Source: Bosea beijingensis
GTDB lineage: Bacteria > Pseudomonadota > Alphaproteobacteria > Rhizobiales > Beijerinckiaceae
NCBI RefSeq assembly: GCF_030758975.1
Contig: NZ_CP132359.1
Span: 3,369,283-3,433,282, forward strand
Direction: 5' to 3'
DNA: 64,000 nt
Both the position numbers and the translations under genes were made by a program. Positions 54,884 through 64,000 of this stretch are shown one piece after another. The first letter of the stretch is position 1. The number at the start of each line of letters is the position of its first letter. The notes below the pieces were generated by a model. The model had not been told where the DNA came from. It did no database searches and was given only the letters and a program-made list of their open reading frames with translations.

Positions 54884-55054
54884 GCGGTTTTCCGGGATGG
54901 CTCGTGGCGCCTTCACAACGAATTCGCATCATCGGTCTTTTTGCCGTTGACAGGGCGCGGCCCGGTCACCATAAGTCCGGCCGCGCCTACCGGTCGTCGC
55001 GAAAGTGACATATCGGTGGCCCTGGGCTCACAGAGCCGATCAAGGGCGCAGGCG

Positions 55055-55138
55055 GGGGAATGTCCCGAGCGGCAAAGGGGGCGGACTGTAAATCCGCTGG
55101 CTATGCCTTCGCAGGTTCGAGTCCTGCTTCCCCCACCA
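55055..55138 (+). tRNA. tRNA-Tyr (anticodon GTA)
   Basis: A class II tRNA of 84 bases including CCA. Acceptor arms GGGGGAA (55055-55061) and TTCCCCC (55128-55134) pair; the anticodon loop CTGTAAA gives GTA; a long variable arm follows; the T arm is GCAGGTTCGAGTCCTGC. Its 3' end abuts the recombinase remnant. Confidence 0.96.
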
Positions 55139-55149
55139 CTTCCGATCAG

Positions 55150-55775
55150 AACTGCGAACCGGGACGCGACCGGCGGCTTGGCTTCGCAAGTTACTTTCAA
55201 AATTGCCGTTTTTGCCGATAACGCGGATTTTCCGGGTTCGACGATGATGGCGCCGACGATTGCACTGAGCCAGACTTTGCGGCCCTCGACCGATCCATTG
55301 GAGAGCCGCTCGATCAGAGCCTGCTGAAACTTTTCCACGACCTGCGCATCGAACATGGACTGGTCGACGAAATTGACCCGGGCGCGCTTAAACGCGTCCT
55401 GAGCGTTATCCCGCTTCTTCCGGATGTCCTTCACGCGGCCTTGGAGCGGGGGCTCGGCGGCATCGAGAATGCCGGATTCGATTGCAAGGTAGAGATTCTG
55501 GAGCGCCTTCTCCGCTTCGACGGCCTCGTGCTGCAGTTGGGCGATGCGGCGATGGACCGTTCCTGTTTCGAAGCTCTACGTTGGTGCAGGGCGGCCAGAA
55601 TTCCGGCAATCCCATCAGGAGTCATGAACCATGCGACGAGTTCGCTCATCACCCGGTTTTCGGCGGCGTCGCGAGAGATAGCCTTAAGCTTGCACGTACC
55701 GGCGCCATTGTTGATGGCTGAGGCGCACTTGTAATAGCGGTAGACCGTGCCGTTCGAAGACAGGCATGCTGTTCA
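55150..55775 (-). pseudogene. Frameshifted, truncated large serine recombinase (C-terminal part)
   Basis: Read on the minus strand, the recombinase zinc-ribbon CLSSNGTVYRYYKCASAI comes first, followed by a second cysteine in GAGTCKLKAIS and a helical VMSELVAWFMTPDGIAGIL segment. The frame shifts near 55565-55590 and continues as TVHRRIAQLQHEAVEAEKAL and KDIRKKRDNAQDAF (coiled coil), then VVEKFQQALIERLSNGS and AIVGAIIVEP. This order is the C-terminal half of large serine recombinases. The N-terminal catalytic domain is gone, and an in-frame stop lies at 55773-55775. It ends beside the tRNA-Tyr 3' end, pointing to old integration there. Confidence 0.72.
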
Positions 55776-55836
55776 GCGAGCCGTTCGGCCGTGCTTTTAT
55801 GGTATCGGAAGCGCTCCTCGGATCTCGCCAGACCCG

Positions 55837-56736
55837 CTACTTGAAAAGCTGGTGATGAACAATCAGCTCCCTGGTCAGATCGACGATCGCCTGTAGATTC
55901 GGCCCCAGTTGTGCGATCTGGTAGCAGAGCGAGACCTCGTGCGCTCCTATGGTCGGCGTGACGGGGATGGTCACCATCCTGCCCTGTGCAAGTTCGTCGG
56001 CCACCACGCGGACCGGGACGAGGCCGATCGCGAAGCCGCTCCGGATCATCAATATCGTGACCGATAAGCTGTCGCAGGTGCTGACCCGCTCGGGAACGAC
56101 GCCAGCGCGCGCGAACCAGTTTGTCATGGTGGTGTGGAGGCGCGCGGTCTGTGGGCTGACGATGAGGTGGTGCGCCGCGATCTGGGCCGGCGTCAACGGC
56201 CCGGACGGGAGTTCTATATCGCCGCTTGCCATCCAGGCGAGCTCGTTCCGGCCGACCGGCACGCGATGGACATGGCTCGCGACGCCAGCCTCCGAGATGA
56301 CGGCGAGGTCGAGCTGGTGATCGTTCAGCAGGCCGCTGACCTTGCTGGTGTCGCCGACGATGACGGATGTCTTCAGTTTCGGGTAATGCCGTTCGAGCCT
56401 GCGCATCAGGTCGGTCAGGCACACCAGGCCGAAGCTCTCGTTGACTCCGATGCGCAGGAGCCCGAGCAACGGGTCACGGCGCTTGAAGCGCATGATCATA
56501 TCGTCCGCATTCTCTAGCAGCCGGTCGGCGTGTTCCAGCAGCGCATGGCCGTCTGAGCTCAGTGAAACGCGCGGCCCGTTGCGGATGAAGAGCTCGACGC
56601 CGAGGGTGTGCTCCAGATCCTTTATGCGTTGGGAGATGCTCGGTTGCGTGATGCCGACATGTTTCGCAGCGGCGTGGAAGCTGCCGAGACGGGCGACGCG
56701 CTCGAACGCGCGGACCTGCGAAAGGGTAATGCTCAT
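55837..56736 (-). CDS. LysR family regulator of the catabolic island
   Basis: A 299-residue LysR-type regulator. The winged-helix N-terminus MSITLSQVRAFERVARLGSF and recognition helix in GITQPSISQRIKDLE are clear, with an effector domain of normal length. It is divergent from the alpha/beta hydrolase gene and the transporter operon, which it probably controls. A TGATA-N9-TATCA palindrome overlaps its start codon. Confidence 0.9.
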   Translation of the reverse strand: MSITLSQVRAFERVARLGSFHAAAKHVGITQPSISQRIKDLEHTLGVELFIRNGPRVSLSSDGHALLEHADRLLENADDMIMRFKRRDPLLGLLRIGVNESFGLVCLTDLMRRLERHYPKLKTSVIVGDTSKVSGLLNDHQLDLAVISEAGVASHVHRVPVGRNELAWMASGDIELPSGPLTPAQIAAHHLIVSPQTARLHTTMTNWFARAGVVPERVSTCDSLSVTILMIRSGFAIGLVPVRVVADELAQGRMVTIPVTPTIGAHEVSLCYQIAQLGPNLQAIVDLTRELIVHHQLFK

Positions 56737-56755: not shown

Positions 56756-56957
56756 AAGTCCCATAAACAATCGATTTTTTAAGCGGCTTTCAAGCTGTTA
56801 TCGATGGTCCCAACGGCGAAGCACGGTTCTCGGTCATAGACATCCGGGCTCCGTGAACGATGCGCCTGTAGCGGGATCGGACTTCTCACGGCCGATGCCC
56901 GCGCGTGGAGGATCGACGCAAGGCGCGCGAGCGCCGGTGTCGGGGAGTGCAGGCACG

Positions 56958-57707
56958 ATGGCCAGGATACCGATCGATGAGGGGGAGCTCCATTACGAGC
57001 TTTCCGGTAGGGAAGACGGTTATCCCGTCCTACTGTTCGCGCCGGGCTTCCTGAGCTCCCGGATCGAACGCTGGCGATCCAATCCCGCCAAGCCCGGCGT
57101 GCCGCAAGCCTGGCGCGACCCCATCCCGGTGCTCGAGCCGCATTTCCGAGTTATTGCCCTCGATGTTCGCAATGCCGGGGCGTCCTGGGCCGAGGTCGGT
57201 CCCGACTATGGGTGGGCATCCTATACGGCCGATCATCTCCGCTTGCTGAAGCATCTCGGCGTCGACCGTTGTCACGTCATGGGGGGCTGTATCGGCGTCT
57301 CGTTTGCGCTGGCGCTCGAACAAGCCGCCCCTGGAACGGTATCGGCGCAGGTCCTGCAAAATCCCATCGGTCTGTCCGACACCAACCGCGACGCGGTCGA
57401 TGACGAGGTCCGGCAATGGATGGAGAAGCTGGTACAGCGGCCGGGAGTCGAGCCGGCGCTGCTGCAAGCCGCAGCCCGGAACATGTTCGCGACCGACTTC
57501 ATCTTCAGCGTGACGCGCGAGTTCACGGGGCGCTGCGGCGTGCCGTCTCTTCTCATGCCAGGCGACGACACCATGCACCCGGCTTCCGTGTCGGCCGATC
57601 TCGAACGGCTGACGAAGGCGGAGGTCATCGCTCCCTGGAAAGGCGAGGGGTATCGGGACGCCGCCATGAATCGCACGCGCGACTTTCTGCTCGCGCATGC
57701 GCCGTGA
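56958..57707 (+). CDS. Alpha/beta hydrolase with cysteine at the nucleophile elbow
   Basis: A 249-residue alpha/beta-fold protein. The oxyanion region is LLFAPGFLSSR; the elbow reads HVMGGCIGVSFALAL, with cysteine where serine is usual (as in dienelactone hydrolases). The acid may be in MPGDDTMHP, whose histidine follows at once; a later catalytic histidine is not obvious, as that region reads APWKGEGYRDA. Start at MARIPIDEGELHY is preferred over 56853. It is first in the rightward cluster and may act on the transported compound. Confidence 0.75.
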   Translation: MARIPIDEGELHYELSGREDGYPVLLFAPGFLSSRIERWRSNPAKPGVPQAWRDPIPVLEPHFRVIALDVRNAGASWAEVGPDYGWASYTADHLRLLKHLGVDRCHVMGGCIGVSFALALEQAAPGTVSAQVLQNPIGLSDTNRDAVDDEVRQWMEKLVQRPGVEPALLQAAARNMFATDFIFSVTREFTGRCGVPSLLMPGDDTMHPASVSADLERLTKAEVIAPWKGEGYRDAAMNRTRDFLLAHAP

Positions 57708-57805: not shown

Positions 57806-58390
57806 ATGGGGGATAACAGCCAGGACGGCACCGCAGAGGCATGGGGAGCTGAAGAGCGGACCTGGAACATGCAGGTTCAGGAGCAGCTCGCGCTTTTGCC
57901 TGCCGCGCTGCGCAGCATGGATCGCGCGCTCATCAAGGCGACGGAGGTGGTGCTCGTAGGGGCTGGCGTGCTGTTCACCCTCTTGATCGCCTATGACGTG
58001 GTCGCGCGCTACGCCTTTGGCGCCTCATCGCTTTTCGTCAGTGCTGCCGCCAAGTTCCTGCTCTTGTGGTTCTTCCTGCTCGGCGCCGGGCTCGCCCTGC
58101 GGCAAGGCAGCCATGTCGGTTTCGAACTGGTCGCGAAGAGCCTGCCATTCCGGACCTATCGCGTCGTTCGAGTCGTCGCCCAACTCGTCGCGCTCGGCTT
58201 TTTCGCCCAGATGCTGTGGAGCGGCGTCGTCTCGCTCGGGCCAGCGGCCCGTCAGAACGACCCGGCGCTGAATCTCAGCCTGTTCTGGGCCTTCCTCGCC
58301 ATGCCGGTGGGCTTCACGCTGCTGATCTACCATCAGCTCGTCCTGATGCTGCTGGACCGTTTCGCACCATCGGAGCGCGCCGCTCCATGA
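57806..58390 (+). CDS. dctQ: TRAP transporter small permease (DctQ)
   Basis: A 194-residue protein with four membrane helices, the DctQ pattern: YDVVARYAFGASSLF, then LLWFFLLGAGLALRQGSHVGFELV with the conserved histidine, and a C-terminal pair. The N-terminus has a soluble extension of about 40 residues; a shorter start is possible. It stabilises the large permease of the TRAP system and overlaps its gene by 4 bases. Confidence 0.9.
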   Translation: MGDNSQDGTAEAWGAEERTWNMQVQEQLALLPAALRSMDRALIKATEVVLVGAGVLFTLLIAYDVVARYAFGASSLFVSAAAKFLLLWFFLLGAGLALRQGSHVGFELVAKSLPFRTYRVVRVVAQLVALGFFAQMLWSGVVSLGPAARQNDPALNLSLFWAFLAMPVGFTLLIYHQLVLMLLDRFAPSERAAP

Positions 58391-59673
58391 TGCTGCCAGT
58401 CGTCGGAATTCTTTTCCTGCTGACCCTGCTGATCGGCATGCCGGTCGCCTTCGGCATGGGTTTCGCCACCTCCACCTTCATGCTCTTCTGGGAGGGGATG
58501 GAGCCGACCATCCTGACGCGAAGATTCTACTCCTCGCTGGGCTCCTTTCCACTTCTCGCAATTCCTCTGTTCACAATGCTCGGCATACTCGCCGATCGCG
58601 CAGGCATGCTGCCGCGCATGGTCGTGTGGCTCCAGATGCTGCTGGGGCGCTGGCGGGGAGGCATGGCGTATCTCAACGTCCTGCAGTCGCTGGTCTTCGC
58701 CGGTGCCGGCGGCACCGCGGTCTCGGACATCGCCAGCACGGGGCGGGTACAGATCCAGCTGATGGTGCGTGCCGGCTATCCGGTGATGTACAGCGCGGCG
58801 CTCACGGCGGCGACTGCGGTCATCGGGCCGATCATTCCGCCGAGCCTGGCGATGATCATCTATGCGATGTCGGTCGGCAACGTCTCGGTGGGCTCGCTCT
58901 TTATCGCGGCGATCATCCCCGGCCTGCTGTTCACGGCCGGCTTCATGGTGATGACCTGGTACACGACGCGCCGCCATGGATACGGAACGGTCACGGAGCG
59001 CCCGCCGTTTCGCGAATTGGTACGTCAAACCATCGCGGTCGTTCCGTTGCTGCTCCTGCCCGTGATCATCGTGGGCGGCATCGTGCTGGGTATTTTCACC
59101 GTCACGGAGTCGGCGGGGGTAGGCGTGGTCTACACGCTGCTCATCGGCTTCCTGTCCAAGCCGCGTCTTCGATTTCGCGACATCTACGATGCCGTCGTCT
59201 ACAGCGCGATGATCAGCTCGGTCGTAGGGATGCTGCTTGCGACGGGCGCACTGATCTCGTGGCTTTTCACCTTCGAGGGCGTCACGCAAACGCTCGCGGA
59301 CCTGCTTACCGCGTTCACTGACAGCCCGACGGTCTTCCTGCTGCTGGTCGTCGCCGCGTTGCTGGTGCTCGGCATGGTGATGGATGCCGTGCCGATCATG
59401 GTGGCGGTTGCGCCGCTCCTGGCGCCGATCGCCGCGCAGTACGGCGTTCCCGACGTTCAGTTCGGACTGATCTTCGTGGTCGCCTCGATGGTCGGCATCG
59501 TCCATCCGCCCGCCGGCGTGATCCTGTTCATGACGGCGAGCCTCATGAACATCTCGGTCGAGCGGCTGTCGCTGGCGATCCTGCCATTCGTCTTCTGGCT
59601 CGTGCTCGTCGTCCTGCTGATGGTGTTCGTCCCTGGCCTGACGACGTGGCTGCCGGAGGTCGTCCGGTCCTGA
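58387..59673 (+). CDS. dctM: TRAP transporter large permease (DctM)
   Basis: A 428-residue permease with about twelve helices. GAGGTAVSDIASTGRVQIQL and the second-half GVILFMTASLMNI region are typical of DctM, which carries the sodium-coupled substrate path. ATG 58387 overlaps the dctQ stop (ATGA), so I reject the longer frame from 58066. The solute is set by the DctP protein encoded next. Confidence 0.95.
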   Translation: MMLPVVGILFLLTLLIGMPVAFGMGFATSTFMLFWEGMEPTILTRRFYSSLGSFPLLAIPLFTMLGILADRAGMLPRMVVWLQMLLGRWRGGMAYLNVLQSLVFAGAGGTAVSDIASTGRVQIQLMVRAGYPVMYSAALTAATAVIGPIIPPSLAMIIYAMSVGNVSVGSLFIAAIIPGLLFTAGFMVMTWYTTRRHGYGTVTERPPFRELVRQTIAVVPLLLLPVIIVGGIVLGIFTVTESAGVGVVYTLLIGFLSKPRLRFRDIYDAVVYSAMISSVVGMLLATGALISWLFTFEGVTQTLADLLTAFTDSPTVFLLLVVAALLVLGMVMDAVPIMVAVAPLLAPIAAQYGVPDVQFGLIFVVASMVGIVHPPAGVILFMTASLMNISVERLSLAILPFVFWLVLVVLLMVFVPGLTTWLPEVVRS

Positions 59674-59709: not shown

Positions 59710-60747
59710 ATGGTGGATAGAAAGATGCCGAAGGGGGCGGGCGGGATCGGCCGCCGCGACGCCCTGAAACTCGGCGCCGCCGCAGGCGCGGGCCTGCTCG
59801 GCCTGTCGATGCCAGCGATCGGTCAGTCGCCGAGGCGGCTGCGCTTCGGACACACGGCTCCGCCGAATGCCGTCTACAGCGAGGCGATCAAGCGGTTCGG
59901 CGACGAGCTTGCGCGGCTGTCCTCCAACAAGCTGCGCCTGCAGGGCTTCCCGAGCTCGCAGCTCGGGCCGATCTCGGAGATGCTTCAGTCCGTGCAGGCA
60001 GGCTCGCTCGATTTCAGCATGGCTGTGCCGGCCTGGTACTCCAGCTTCGTCAAGGAGATGAACGTCTTCGCGCTGCCCTATCTCGTGGGTTCGCAGGAGA
60101 AGCTGCGCACCGCGCTCGACGGTGAGATCGGCGCCGAGATCGCGCGGATGACCGAGGCGGCCGGCCTCAGGGTCTTCGGCTACTGGTTCATGGGCCAGCG
60201 CCACATCGTCAACCGCGTGAGGGCGGTTCACAAGCCGGCGGACACGACCGGGCTCAAGCTGCGCGTCATCAACAACGAGGTTCACATGGCGACCTTCAAG
60301 GCGCTCGGTGCGAGCCCCGTCGCGATGGACCCATCCGAACTCTACCTCGCGTTGCAGCAAGGCGTCGTCGACGGGTTCGAGTTCCCGCTGCCGGACCTCA
60401 TCGACCAGAAGCTGCACGAGGTCGCGCCCTTCGTCTCGCTCGACGCACACACCACCGACTTCTTCCTCGTCGCGATGAGCCCGGCGACCTGGAAATCCTT
60501 CTCGCCCGAGGAACAGGCCATGGTCGGCCAGGCGATGAAGAGCGCCATGGACTGGCAATGGGAGGCGCAGCCGAAAGATATCGCGCGGGCGCGCGCAGCG
60601 CTCGAGAAGGCGGTGAAGGTGAACGACATCTCGCCGGACAACCTCGCGCTGTTCGTCAAGGCGACGGAGCCGGTCTACGCGCAGTTCGCGCCGAAGATCG
60701 GCCAAGCCTGGCTCGACAAGTGTACGGCTGCCCTCAGAGGGGCGTAG
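59710..60747 (+). CDS. dctP: TRAP transporter solute-binding protein (DctP family)
   Basis: A 345-residue periplasmic binding protein. The N-terminus has a twin-arginine-like signal (GRRDALKLGAAAGAGLLGL). RLRFGHTAPPNAVYSEAIKRF and the arginine-containing LKLRVINNEVH, where the solute carboxylate is bound in this family, are present. DctP proteins bind organic acids and deliver them to DctQM. It follows dctM by 36 bases. Confidence 0.92.
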   Translation: MVDRKMPKGAGGIGRRDALKLGAAAGAGLLGLSMPAIGQSPRRLRFGHTAPPNAVYSEAIKRFGDELARLSSNKLRLQGFPSSQLGPISEMLQSVQAGSLDFSMAVPAWYSSFVKEMNVFALPYLVGSQEKLRTALDGEIGAEIARMTEAAGLRVFGYWFMGQRHIVNRVRAVHKPADTTGLKLRVINNEVHMATFKALGASPVAMDPSELYLALQQGVVDGFEFPLPDLIDQKLHEVAPFVSLDAHTTDFFLVAMSPATWKSFSPEEQAMVGQAMKSAMDWQWEAQPKDIARARAALEKAVKVNDISPDNLALFVKATEPVYAQFAPKIGQAWLDKCTAALRGA

Positions 60748-60794
60748 CCGCGAAGCGGGCGCTCGCTCGGCCGATCAGGATTGAAAGGAACCAC

Positions 60795-61766
60795 ATGACG
60801 ATCAGGGCCGCCGTCATCGACGACTGGCAGGGCGCGGCGAGGTCGAGCGCCGACTGGAGCACGCTCGCCGGGCGCGCCGAGATAACCTTCTTCGAGGATG
60901 CGCTGCCGGACGAGGACACCGCCGCCGCGAGGCTGGCCGACTTCGATATCGTGCTGTCGATGCGCGAGCGTACGCCGTTTCCCGCCAGCCTGATCGCGCG
61001 CCTGCCGAAGTTGCGTATGCTGAGCGTGACCGGCGCACGCAACAAGTCTGTCGATCTTTCGGCGCTTGCCGAACGCGGGATCGTCGTGACGCGGACCGAG
61101 GCCGGCGAGGATGGCTCGGCCACGGCCGAACTCGCGCTGCTGCTGATGCTGGAAGGCGCTCGCCGGGTCGCCGCCGGCGATGCCGCCATCCGAGCCGGGC
61201 GCTTCCAGGCCGGCATAGCGCCGGGCTTCGTCCTGCGCGGCAAGACGCTGGGTCTGGTCGGCCTCGGGAAGCTCGGCTCGCGGGTGGCAGGCTATGGCAA
61301 GGCGCTCGGGATGACGGTCCTGGCCTGGAGCCCGAACCTAACGCAGGAACGGGCGGAGGCAGGCGGTGCGATCTTCGCCGAAAAGGACGAGCTGCTGCGG
61401 CGTGCCGACATCGTCAGCCTGCACATGGTGCTGGCGCCGGCGACGCGGGGTATCATCGGCGCGCGCGAGATCGCACTGCTCAAGCCGGGCGCGGTCATCG
61501 TCAATACATCGCGCGGGCCACTCATCGAAGAGGCGGCTCTGCTCGAGGCGCTGGGCGCCGGCCGGATCGTTGCAGCGCTCGACGTCTACGATCAAGAGCC
61601 GCTGCCGCGAGGCCACCCGCTACTCGACGCGCCCAACACCATCCTGTCGCCGCATCTCGGCTACTGCGTGCGCGAGAATTTCTCGGTGTTCTACCGGCAA
61701 TCGATCGAGAACGTCCTCGCCTTTCTAGACGGCACACCGATCCGCCCACTGACCGACGGCGCTTGA
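60795..61766 (+). CDS. D-2-hydroxyacid dehydrogenase
   Basis: A 323-residue NAD(P)-dependent dehydrogenase. The Rossmann loop GLVGLGKLGSRVAGYGKALG is near residue 155; the catalytic set is arginine in NTSRGPLIEE, glutamate in DVYDQEPLPR and histidine in LSPHLGYC, as in D-lactate/glycerate/phosphoglycerate dehydrogenases. It would oxidise a 2-hydroxyacid brought in by the TRAP system or reduce the matching 2-oxoacid. ATG 60795 follows AAAGGAA. Confidence 0.92.
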   Translation: MTIRAAVIDDWQGAARSSADWSTLAGRAEITFFEDALPDEDTAAARLADFDIVLSMRERTPFPASLIARLPKLRMLSVTGARNKSVDLSALAERGIVVTRTEAGEDGSATAELALLLMLEGARRVAAGDAAIRAGRFQAGIAPGFVLRGKTLGLVGLGKLGSRVAGYGKALGMTVLAWSPNLTQERAEAGGAIFAEKDELLRRADIVSLHMVLAPATRGIIGAREIALLKPGAVIVNTSRGPLIEEAALLEALGAGRIVAALDVYDQEPLPRGHPLLDAPNTILSPHLGYCVRENFSVFYRQSIENVLAFLDGTPIRPLTDGA

Positions 61767-61805: not shown

Positions 61806-62558
61806 ATGAACGATATGAACCATGGCAGATTGCGGTTGCGCCCCAATGCGGTGAAGCGGGCGGCGGCATCCGGCACCACGATCCGAGGCTGTCATATGAC
61901 CTTCGCCGCGCCGCCGGTGATCGAGATCCTCGCCTCGCTCGACCTCGACTTCATCTATATCGACGGCGAGCACGGTGCGTTCGATCTCAAGGATGTCGAG
62001 ATCGCCTGCCTCGCCGCCGAGCGCCACGACCTCGTGCCCATCGCCCGCGTGCCGGACCGAACGGCTGCCACGATCACCCGCTTCCTCGATCGGGGCGTGC
62101 GCGGCATCGTGGTGCCGCATGTCGACTCTGTCGCCGACGCGCAGGAGGCGCTGGACGCCATCTATTTCTCGCCGCGCGGCAGCCGCTCCTTCGGCGGCGG
62201 CAGGCCCTATTACCTCGCCATCGATGATCTGCCGCGACATCTTGCCGACGTCAACGAAGACATCTCGGTGGGCATCATGATCGAGAGCGTGGCCGGGCTC
62301 GAGGCGGCCCACGAGATCGCGGCGCTGCCCGGCGTCGACTATCTCAGCTTCGGCCTCAACGATCTCGCGCAGGCCCTCGGCTATCCCGGCGAGCCCGCCC
62401 ATGCGGAGGTCCAGCGACAGGTGGCGCAGGCCTCGGAGCGAATCCGGGGGGCCGGCAAGCGCATTCGCGAGGACTTCATGAAGGTCGCCTGGATCAATCA
62501 GGTGCTGCTGACGGGCATGCGCGAGCTGATGGCCCGCCCGATCACGCTTCCCTATTGA
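61806..62558 (+). CDS. HpcH/HpaI family aldolase
   Basis: A 250-residue TIM-barrel aldolase. DFIYIDGEHGAFDLKDV is the family signature with a metal-ligand/catalytic histidine, followed by VPHVDSVADAQEAL, GIMIESVAGLEA with the metal-binding glutamate, and SFGLNDLAQALG. Such enzymes split 2-oxo-hydroxyacids (2-keto-3-deoxy type) into pyruvate and an aldehyde. With the dehydrogenase it could form an oxidise-then-cleave route for hydroxyacids. Confidence 0.92.
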   Translation: MNDMNHGRLRLRPNAVKRAAASGTTIRGCHMTFAAPPVIEILASLDLDFIYIDGEHGAFDLKDVEIACLAAERHDLVPIARVPDRTAATITRFLDRGVRGIVVPHVDSVADAQEALDAIYFSPRGSRSFGGGRPYYLAIDDLPRHLADVNEDISVGIMIESVAGLEAAHEIAALPGVDYLSFGLNDLAQALGYPGEPAHAEVQRQVAQASERIRGAGKRIREDFMKVAWINQVLLTGMRELMARPITLPY

Positions 62559-62569
62559 GGGGCGGGGAC

Positions 62570-63037
62570 ATGCGGGCATCGACCTTGCCGAAGGTCAAAT
62601 GCGGGACCGACCTCGCATTCGGGCTGTTCCTGCTCGCCGCGGGGCTGACGGCGCTCTGGCTGACCAGTGAACTGCGGCCGGGCATCGCCATGCGGATGGG
62701 GCCGGGATATGTGCCGCGTCTGCTGGGCTGGCTGTCGGTCGGCTTCGGCGCTGTCATCGCGACCCGCGGCCTGCTGGTCGAGGGGCCGGGCCTGACGGCC
62801 TGGGCTATGCGGCCGCTGATCGCGGTCTCGGTCGCGGTCTTCGTCTTCATGGGCGTCGAGCGCATCGGGTTGGTCGCAGCGGTGGTTGCGGTCACGCTCG
62901 TCGCCTGCCTCGGCGACAGGACGACGAACTGGAAGCATGCGCTGGTCCTCGCCATCGGGCTCGCCGCCTTCACCGGGCTGACCTTCGTCAAGGCCCTCGG
63001 ATTGCCGATGCCGCTCTGGCCGGCGCTTGGCTTCTAG
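62570..63037 (+). CDS. tctB: TctB family tripartite tricarboxylate transporter subunit
   Basis: A 155-residue protein with four or five membrane helices; the LAFGLFLLAAGLTALWLTSEL start and GPGYVPRLLGWLSVGFG match the TctB family (small membrane subunit of TTT transporters). ATG 62570 follows GAGGGGCGGGG. It starts 11 bases after the aldolase stop, so it is in the same operon. Confidence 0.9.
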   Translation: MRASTLPKVKCGTDLAFGLFLLAAGLTALWLTSELRPGIAMRMGPGYVPRLLGWLSVGFGAVIATRGLLVEGPGLTAWAMRPLIAVSVAVFVFMGVERIGLVAAVVAVTLVACLGDRTTNWKHALVLAIGLAAFTGLTFVKALGLPMPLWPALGF

Positions 63038-63046
63038 AGGCAGGAC

Positions 63047-64000
63047 ATGCTCGACGTCTTCCCACAGTTTCTAGGTGGCCTCGGCATCGCGATGATGCCG
63101 ACCAATCTGCTCTACTGCTTCATCGGCGCGCTGATCGGTACGCTGATCGGCGTGCTGCCCGGGCTCGGGCCTGTCGCAACCGTGGCGATGCTGCTGCCTG
63201 TGACCTTCTACCTGCCGCCGGTCTCGGCGCTGATCATGCTCGCAGGCATCTATTACGGCGCGCAGTATGGTGGTTCGACCACGGCGATCCTGGTCAATCT
63301 GCCGGGCGAGAACTCGGCGGTCGTGACCTGCCTCGACGGCTACCAGATGGCGCGCCGGGGCAGGGCTGGGCCGGCGCTCGCCGTCGCGGCGCTGGTCTCG
63401 CTGACTGCCGGCGTGTTTGCGACCTTCTTCATCGCGCTGTTCGCCCCGCCGCTGGCGAAGGTCGCGCTGATGTTCGGACCGGCAGAGTATTTCTCGCTGA
63501 TGGTACTCGGGCTGATCGCGGCAATCGTGTTGGCGCAAGGCTCGATCATCTCGGCACTGGGCATGATCGTCTTCGGTCTTCTGCTTTCGATGGTCGGCAC
63601 CGACGTGAATTCGGGTGTGCCGCGCATGACTCTCGGGATTCCTGAACTCAACGACGGAATCGGCTTCGTTCCGCTGGCGATGGGCCTCTTTGCCGTCGGC
63701 GAGATCGTCAAGAATCTCGAGAACCCCGAGAATCGGGTGCTCGTCAGCGAGAAGATCGGCAGGCTCTGGCCGTCGCGCGACGATTTCCGGCGCTCGGCCC
63801 CTGCAGCGCTGCGCGGCACGGCGCTCGGCTCACTGCTCGGCCTCCTGCCGGGCGGCGGCGCGATGCTGTCGGCCTTTGCCGCCTACACGCTCGAGAAGAA
63901 GCTGTCCAAAGAGCCGCAGCGTTTCGGCAAGGGCGCAGTCGAAGGCGTGGCCGCTCCCGAAAGCGCCAATAATGCCGGAGCGCAGACTTCATTCATCCCA
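63047..64000 (+). CDS. tctA: TctA family tripartite tricarboxylate transporter large permease, partial
   Basis: 318 codons are present and the gene continues beyond the window. It reads GALIGTLIGVLPGLGPVATV, YYGAQYGGSTTAILVNLPGE and LLPGGGAMLSAFAAYTLEK, the duplicated signatures of TctA, which forms the transport path of TTT systems for citrate, tartrate or aromatic acids. It starts 9 bases after tctB. The TctC solute-binding protein, if present, lies beyond the window. Confidence 0.95.
   Translation, partial: MLDVFPQFLGGLGIAMMPTNLLYCFIGALIGTLIGVLPGLGPVATVAMLLPVTFYLPPVSALIMLAGIYYGAQYGGSTTAILVNLPGENSAVVTCLDGYQMARRGRAGPALAVAALVSLTAGVFATFFIALFAPPLAKVALMFGPAEYFSLMVLGLIAAIVLAQGSIISALGMIVFGLLLSMVGTDVNSGVPRMTLGIPELNDGIGFVPLAMGLFAVGEIVKNLENPENRVLVSEKIGRLWPSRDDFRRSAPAALRGTALGSLLGLLPGGGAMLSAFAAYTLEKKLSKEPQRFGKGAVEGVAAPESANNAGAQTSFIP

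Follow-up and report, generated by a model that had tools for sequence, protein, structure and literature searches.

The window analysed here, a stretch of 64,000 nucleotides of Bosea beijingensis (G000:C1:3,369,283-3,433,282, in a single-contig genome of 5.56 Mb), contains an intact tRNA-Tyr gene, the 85 bases of which are 97.6-100% identical in 14 relatives, and directly beside it the minus-strand remnant of a large serine recombinase (LSR). The features of this boundary, together with the far end of the element that we propose, are as follows.

55,054-55,138, plus strand: tRNA-Tyr(gta), intact, the proposed integration target (ARAGORN)
55,133-55,754, minus strand: LSR remnant, residues 339-546 of 546 (tblastn with the intact LSR of G066; PF13408 below cut-off; PHROG 95)
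55,132-55,160: attL of the element, made up of the tRNA-Tyr 3' end and the P' arm
55,132-55,138, plus strand: CCCACCA, putative crossover zone, the sole stretch common to attL (tRNA-Tyr) and attR (tRNA-Met core) when the two are compared
55,140-55,160, plus strand: P' arm of the attachment site, TTCCGATCAGAACTGCGAACC, recognised by the arm lying 2 nt past the tRNA CCA at other loci
G000:C1:3,444,741-3,444,758, outside the window (would be window 75,459-75,476): attR of the element, P arm and 18-bp tRNA-Met 3' end, then CTATCCTTCCACGATC

The recombinase remnant and the genes behind it

An intact Bosea LSR of 546 residues from G066, trimmed after its WW, served as the reference for the remnant; resolvase (PF00239, E 2.6e-24), Recombinase (PF07508) and zinc-ribbon domains are all present in it. 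Its residues 339-406, 408-514 and 515-546 were aligned by tblastn to window positions 55,754-55,133 at 62, 63 and 84% identity, respectively, and PHROG 95, an integrase family, matches both remnant pieces (E 6.4e-4 and 3e-5), which bears out the minus-strand recombinase remnant that a preliminary description of this DNA had read beside the tRNA-Tyr 3' end. That description let the remnant extend to 55,836 and placed one frameshift near 55,570; the remnant itself starts at about 55,754, and the frameshift exists but lies near 55,550, with a second one near 55,228. The catalytic domain, the recombinase domain and the start of the zinc ribbon are absent: no N-terminal resolvase catalytic domain was found in the remnant, which begins at residue 339 of the G066 protein, in agreement with the catalytic half having been called missing, and a genome search for PF07508 gave matches at two other loci only, none of them in the remnant. 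Of the zinc ribbon that had also been read, the later half probably remains and the first part is missing: Zn_ribbon_recom (PF13408) matches the first remnant piece at E 5.3e-5 over profile positions 24-57 of 58, although at 24 bits the score falls just under the cut-off of 25.3; the matching stretch aligns with the ribbon region of the G066 LSR. The second piece matched no Pfam recombinase family. The final codons of the remnant overlap tRNA-Tyr in the register in which intact relatives adjoin other tRNAs. The window gene is a broken LSR copy, not a working LSR.

Two further intact LSR frames are found at G000:C1:2,850,137 and 2,876,372 (L003, L002), 26 kb apart and on opposite strands. As candidate sources of the remnant both were rejected, being located at 2.85-2.88 Mb with no tRNA within 1.5 kb. 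The tRNA-Tyr/secE neighbourhood was considered as well and proved uninformative, with secE 2 Mb away.

The accessory catabolic genes begin right after the remnant, as had been noticed earlier, with a LysR gene from 55,837 followed by TRAP and TTT cargo.

55,837-56,736, minus strand: LysR regulator, first cargo gene (PF03466, PF00126)
56,853-57,707, plus strand: alpha/beta hydrolase (PF00561)
57,806-58,390, plus strand: TRAP transporter DctQ (PF04290)
58,066-59,673, plus strand: TRAP transporter DctM, frame as scanned, domain from about 58,411 (PF06808 at residues 116-525)
59,710-60,747, plus strand: TRAP solute-binding protein DctP (PF03480)
60,558-61,766, plus strand: D-2-hydroxyacid dehydrogenase, start uncertain (PF02826, PF00389)
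61,806-62,558, plus strand: HpcH/HpaI aldolase (PF03328)
62,555-63,037, plus strand: TctB (PF07331)
63,047-64,000, plus strand: TctA, extending beyond the window end, the element going on to attR (PF01970)

Pfam matches were obtained for 18 of the 20 element frames scanned (two had none), and the families comprise LysR, hydrolase, TRAP DctQ/M/P, 2-hydroxyacid dehydrogenase, HpcH aldolase, two TctABC sets, SDR, NHL, IclR, Fe-ADH and Dak1. Neither a relaxase nor a phage family was among the matches of these 20 frames. The intact element of a relative, G003, does carry a MobA/VirD2-type relaxase, and intact kin of the element may therefore be mobilizable.

The two ends of the proposed element, in a layered hot spot

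In the 119 kb downstream of tRNA-Tyr, a single site combines the P arm with a tRNA-Met core, at 3 mismatches in 32, and a tolerance of up to 9 mismatches in 32 brought up no second P-arm site in this stretch. On the kb scale of G000 ('own') this attR lies at 20.7 kb and the right flank starts at own 20,759; the element between the ends measures 20,338 bp (G000 3,424,421-3,444,758). Its GC content is even, at 0.63-0.68, with no shift inside. The 18-mer of the core occurs twice in the G000 genome, at attR and in tRNA-Met. The preliminary description had suggested looking downstream for a direct repeat of the 3' end of tRNA-Tyr, but there is none: the last 42 bases of tRNA-Tyr have no further copy in the genome at up to 3 mismatches, and short-word BLAST of the window and the 119 kb downstream gave weak matches only, of which the longest to cover the 3' end is a tRNA-Gly T-arm. 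Among the usual marks of a tRNA island, one end at a tRNA 3' end and a defined other end are thus present, whereas the target's 3' end is not repeated, CCCACCA alone being common to both ends. When the core stems from another tRNA, looking for a repeat of the target's own end would miss the element. The attP arms of three elements are symmetrical about a common centre in 14, 15 and 16 of 30 pairs, a degree of symmetry that shuffled arms reach as well (best centre on average 13.1, at most 18), and clear inverted arms are limited to the 8-bp GTTCGCAG/CTGCGAAC of relatives, the G000 P arm itself reading GTTCTCGG.

The same attachment system is found in relatives. In G066 and G003 an intact LSR frame enters tRNA-Met, after which the P' arm follows, and the last 18 bases of this tRNA recur 67.4 and 48.5 kb away, respectively, behind a conserved P arm. 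At up to 3 mismatches the P' arm occurs in 39 of 200 genomes, against 2 for the reversed control. Among 44 places listed, 30 were opened, and in 17 of these the arm lies 2 nt past a tRNA CCA (Met 8, Tyr 4, Arg 4, Leu 1); in one it lies at 8 nt (Tyr), and 12 do not adjoin a complete tRNA, including those of G061 and G076, where the arm comes after a piece of tRNA-Met end. In G061 (C9:433,406 and 439,367; L357) a further P' arm, accompanied by part of the tRNA-Met core, is situated 5.9 kb past tRNA-Met, perhaps a tandem insertion. The tRNA-Met 18-mer was found in 48 of 101 genomes searched, and the eight genomes that contain it twice all have one tRNA-Met gene and one copy after a P arm, i.e. 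an attR. This attR is on the same contig as tRNA-Met, 3.4 to 67 kb away, in G001, G003, G007 and G066; it was placed at the tRNA-Tyr locus in G000, G020 and G080, in all three of which tRNA-Met lacks the P' arm; and in G015 it is on another contig than tRNA-Met.

Based on these ends, we consider it very likely that an element of 20,338 bp with a tRNA-Met-type attP took tRNA-Tyr as an alternative target, leaving the attL remnant, and that its LSR has since decayed. An LSR would have recombined the attP of the element with the 3' end of tRNA-Tyr without damage to the tRNA gene, such that the chromosome would keep tRNA-Tyr up to CCCACCA, followed by the P' arm and the recombinase gene, while the P arm with the 18-bp tRNA-Met 3' end would come to stand at attR. 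It is this P arm with its tRNA-Met end that identifies the attP as of the tRNA-Met type. tRNA-Tyr was probably accepted because a GTTCGA T-loop and a CCA end are common to tRNAs, which would then be the bases recognised; the cargo would have arrived with the element, which is presumably now fixed owing to the later decay of the LSR. The second tRNA (Met) piece at the far end suggests that such an enzyme can move between tRNA genes. The earlier view that the remnant marks the attachment side of an integrated element accordingly stands, with attL beside a degraded LSR and attR 20.3 kb away. Several findings count against our explanation, among them the even GC content, the weak symmetry of the arms and, in G007, a tRNA-Met that has no P' arm although an attR is found 41 kb on.

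The tRNA-Tyr loci of 14 relatives, out of 55 genomes with a match (own included), were compared over at most about 15 kb downstream of each (E at most 1e-8, over 80 bp). Own 0.53-42.5 kb of G000 matched none of them within this range, and none of the relatives examined has the G000 gene order past tRNA-Tyr, which leaves the island boundary proposed in the preliminary description standing. G017, G021 and G029 share DNA with G000 from own 42.5 kb on, and G002, G006 and G012, which have a tRNA-Gly 131-169 bp past tRNA-Tyr, otherwise share only the flank from own 111-115 kb. No relative examined has a truly empty site, in which own 20,759 would follow immediately on tRNA-Tyr, and this counts against our explanation; G020 shares the flank but is occupied. 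As own 20.8-42.5 kb is missing from the 14 loci too, more than one insertion must have happened, and the staggered sharing of the flank, from 42.5 kb or from 111-115 kb, marks the tRNA-Tyr locus as a layered hot spot. The variable stretch past tRNA-Tyr also includes, at about G000 3,508,000-3,535,000 (own 84-111 kb), what we take by eye to be a type VI secretion-like cluster.

An alternative is that the island comprises the entire 42.1-kb segment that G017 lacks, or roughly 110 kb up to the conserved flank, of which the 20.3 kb would be a part or a chance sub-boundary. In G017, colinearity returns no earlier than own 42,533, at a point 384 bp past its tRNA-Tyr, and for the larger island the flank shared by G002, G006 and G012 begins no earlier than own 111 kb; nevertheless, we hold this alternative to be unlikely, because the full P arm and core at 20.7 kb, and the same junction with a homologous flank in G020, indicate that the 20.3 kb are a real unit inside a larger hot spot. 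G020, a second Bosea species, has the same two ends as G000, but on separate contigs, linked to each other by flank homology only: the attR flanks of both genomes are 89% identical over 4,930 bp, and the G020 flank goes on into DNA that in G021 lies 2.75-5.57 kb past tRNA-Tyr (84%).

The attR might instead derive from another element than the LSR remnant, both ends having been united by deletion or nesting. The differing cores, tRNA-Tyr against tRNA-Met, would fit this, and the LSR is broken, so that its cognate pairing is unreadable from the protein. On the other hand, the absence of a second P-arm site in the 119 kb argues against it, as do the next P'-arm-like matches in that stretch, which show 4 (own 104,254) or 6 (four sites) mismatches of 21 and never stand beside a tRNA call, and the recurrence of the same pairing in G020, all of which makes a second element improbable. 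That the recombinase fragment is stray debris beside a tRNA, marking no boundary, we regard as hardly credible: the remnant is indeed truncated and frameshifted, and 12 of the 30 opened P'-arm-like loci are not at a tRNA, but its P' arm and 2-nt spacing to CCA equal those of intact elements at other tRNAs, an attR exists, and an exact P' arm (0-1 mismatch) stands at the tRNA end in nearly every case, which is unexpected of debris.

Returning to the element with two tRNA types at its ends, we find the third Bosea species, G080, to have an attR only, 15.1 kb past tRNA-Tyr on the same strand and assigned to this tRNA by distance. Its attL is gone, and the arm after its tRNA-Tyr resembles that of G022 and G024 and looks like a tyrosine-integrase arm. 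A tyrosine integrase of G024 (PF00589; L045 13,042-14,169) ends 12 bp from the same tRNA-Tyr, with similar arms in G022 and G080. Two integrase types thus appear to use one tRNA-Tyr. A tree of attL arms was built from 12 of 17 collected, cut to 115-145 nt (146 columns), leaving out G020, G017, G018, G009 and G010 for an arm deletion or little recombinase sequence. Met-type and Tyr-type arms are mixed in it (4 changes vs a shuffled mean of 3.5; no starred branch), and a single Tyr clade is rejected (p-AU 0.021).

The recombinase family at tRNA genes and its C-terminus

Relatives of the second remnant piece were found in 39 of 200 genomes, and at 23 of 30 flanked loci (the window's own included) a tRNA for Tyr, Met, Arg, Ser or Asn stands within about 100 bp of the match end, the other seven having none. 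Sixteen relatives were aligned (A1) and share an invariant Trp near the end. When the named genomes were scanned with A1, 59 of the best 80 loci from a longer list had a complete tRNA at the end of the match; 16 had none, four were at a contig end and in one the match stopped early. As these 80 loci were chosen by likeness to A1, the rows of which were mostly tRNA-adjacent, the counts describe this LSR family and not LSRs at large; the earlier remark that LSRs at tRNA sites are less common understates the use of tRNAs by this family. The 59 tRNAs are Arg (34), Glu (16), Phe (3), Met, Leu and Ser (2 each), and from the tRNA 3' end to the end of the KW[RW] codons the distance is exactly 5 nt in 58 of them and 2 nt in the remaining one. 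With the early-stopping locus included, the invariant Trp is encoded in all 60 tRNA loci by a TGG that is complementary to the tRNA CCA, and 52 of these loci have the recombinase stop codon within the tRNA, among them most tRNA-Arg members.

Where a complete tRNA is missing, the Trp codon is followed in 13 of 16 cases by a T-loop in antisense (TTCGAA or TCGAAC), and by eye these are tRNA 3' halves cut near the anticodon. LSRs beside a tRNA 3' half only (L197, L208, L227, L243, L250 and others) might represent free attP forms, insertions in tandem or sites of another kind. For tRNA-Arg-type elements no attR was found within 100 kb in G023, G104 and G089, a weak 19-bp match in G089 (E 0.026) being taken as chance. 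In phage and plasmid records the best relatives are 34 and 38% identical. Four plasmid loci were opened: one, a 34% identical relative on pSymB of Sinorhizobium meliloti ml21, a large replicon, ends in tRNA-Arg(ccg) (L182 3,106-3,182), and three are without a tRNA. On plasmids of Enterobacter and Brevundimonas (L181, L183), relatives with 34-35% identity are preceded by a pair of HTH and DUF6516 genes and have no tRNA in their vicinity. Among 80 viral contigs, the match ends at a tRNA in 10 and not in 35, ends early in 27 and reaches the contig end in eight.

When the recombinase frame is read outward through the tRNA-Met-type attR, it continues as WWAGPD and 12 residues of the type KSANTYVIEIAT up to a stop at the same codon in all eight cases, whereas in the integrated state the LSR tail is the antisense of tRNA-Met or tRNA-Tyr. 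Since the frame continues past attR into a conserved tail, integration seems to replace the C-terminus of the LSR. Identity between genomes is 62-85% over the final 40 bases of the P arm and 15-45% over the 40 preceding ones; differences in the tail frame favour third positions (15 vs 7 and 8), and pN/pS is 0.41 in the recombinase frame vs 1.27 and 0.59 in the other two. These values are suggestive of coding constraint on the tail, as judged from few codons to which constraint on the attachment site itself could add. We tentatively put forward the joint reading that a widespread, largely alphaproteobacterial LSR family might take as its attB half-site the T-loop universal to tRNAs (GTTCGA) together with the CCA end and therefore hop between tRNA genes, and that in its tRNA-Met-type branch, where the gene runs through attP, integration might swap the native 12-residue tail (K-S-x-N-x-Y-x-I-E-I-x-x) for tRNA-antisense residues, a possible built-in switch between integrated and free enzyme. 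A functional role of the exchanged tail is what we infer here; if the exchange matters, it would offer a testable way for a serine integrase to sense its own integration.

Comparison with known systems

LSRs of the phiC31/Bxb1/TP901-1 type have the Resolvase, Recombinase and zinc-ribbon domains of the intact G066 protein, and the TP901-1 integrase is among its PDB matches. The present family differs in that its site falls in a tRNA 3' end and, at the same time, within the 3' part of the recombinase frame, an arrangement that typical LSR attachment sites are not known to have. Among the literature matches listed, in which subscription titles are thinly covered, no title was found on this LSR family or on a serine integrase with an exchanged tail. 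According to the accessible part of the Islander database paper, only tyrosine-family integrases were known at tRNA genes, and serine recombinases were left out (PMC4383910). The tRNA-adjacent majority of our best loci suggests that island catalogues limited to tyrosine integrases miss many elements.

Use of tRNA genes by serine recombinases is called rare in the available text of a 2011 survey, which describes Mycobacterium AICEs in tRNA-Leu and phage phiRSM1 in tRNA-Ser (PMC3218068). These are like the window element in having a serine recombinase at a tRNA, in other hosts, the likeness being one of target; the same portion of the survey does not mention a single core serving two tRNAs. Five serine-recombinase IMEs of Mesorhizobium (PMC8627217) combine, as far as the available text goes, a serine integrase with cargo as does the window element, in which no relaxase was found and whose relative in G003 has one. 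A further comparable system is the Paracoccus phage vB_PamS_Pami6, an active siphovirus that in the accessible part of its report is the only serine-recombinase phage with a predicted site, namely tRNA-Met(CAT) (PMC6536676). Like the present family, it has an alphaproteobacterial serine recombinase, and the likeness in target refers to this predicted tRNA-Met site.
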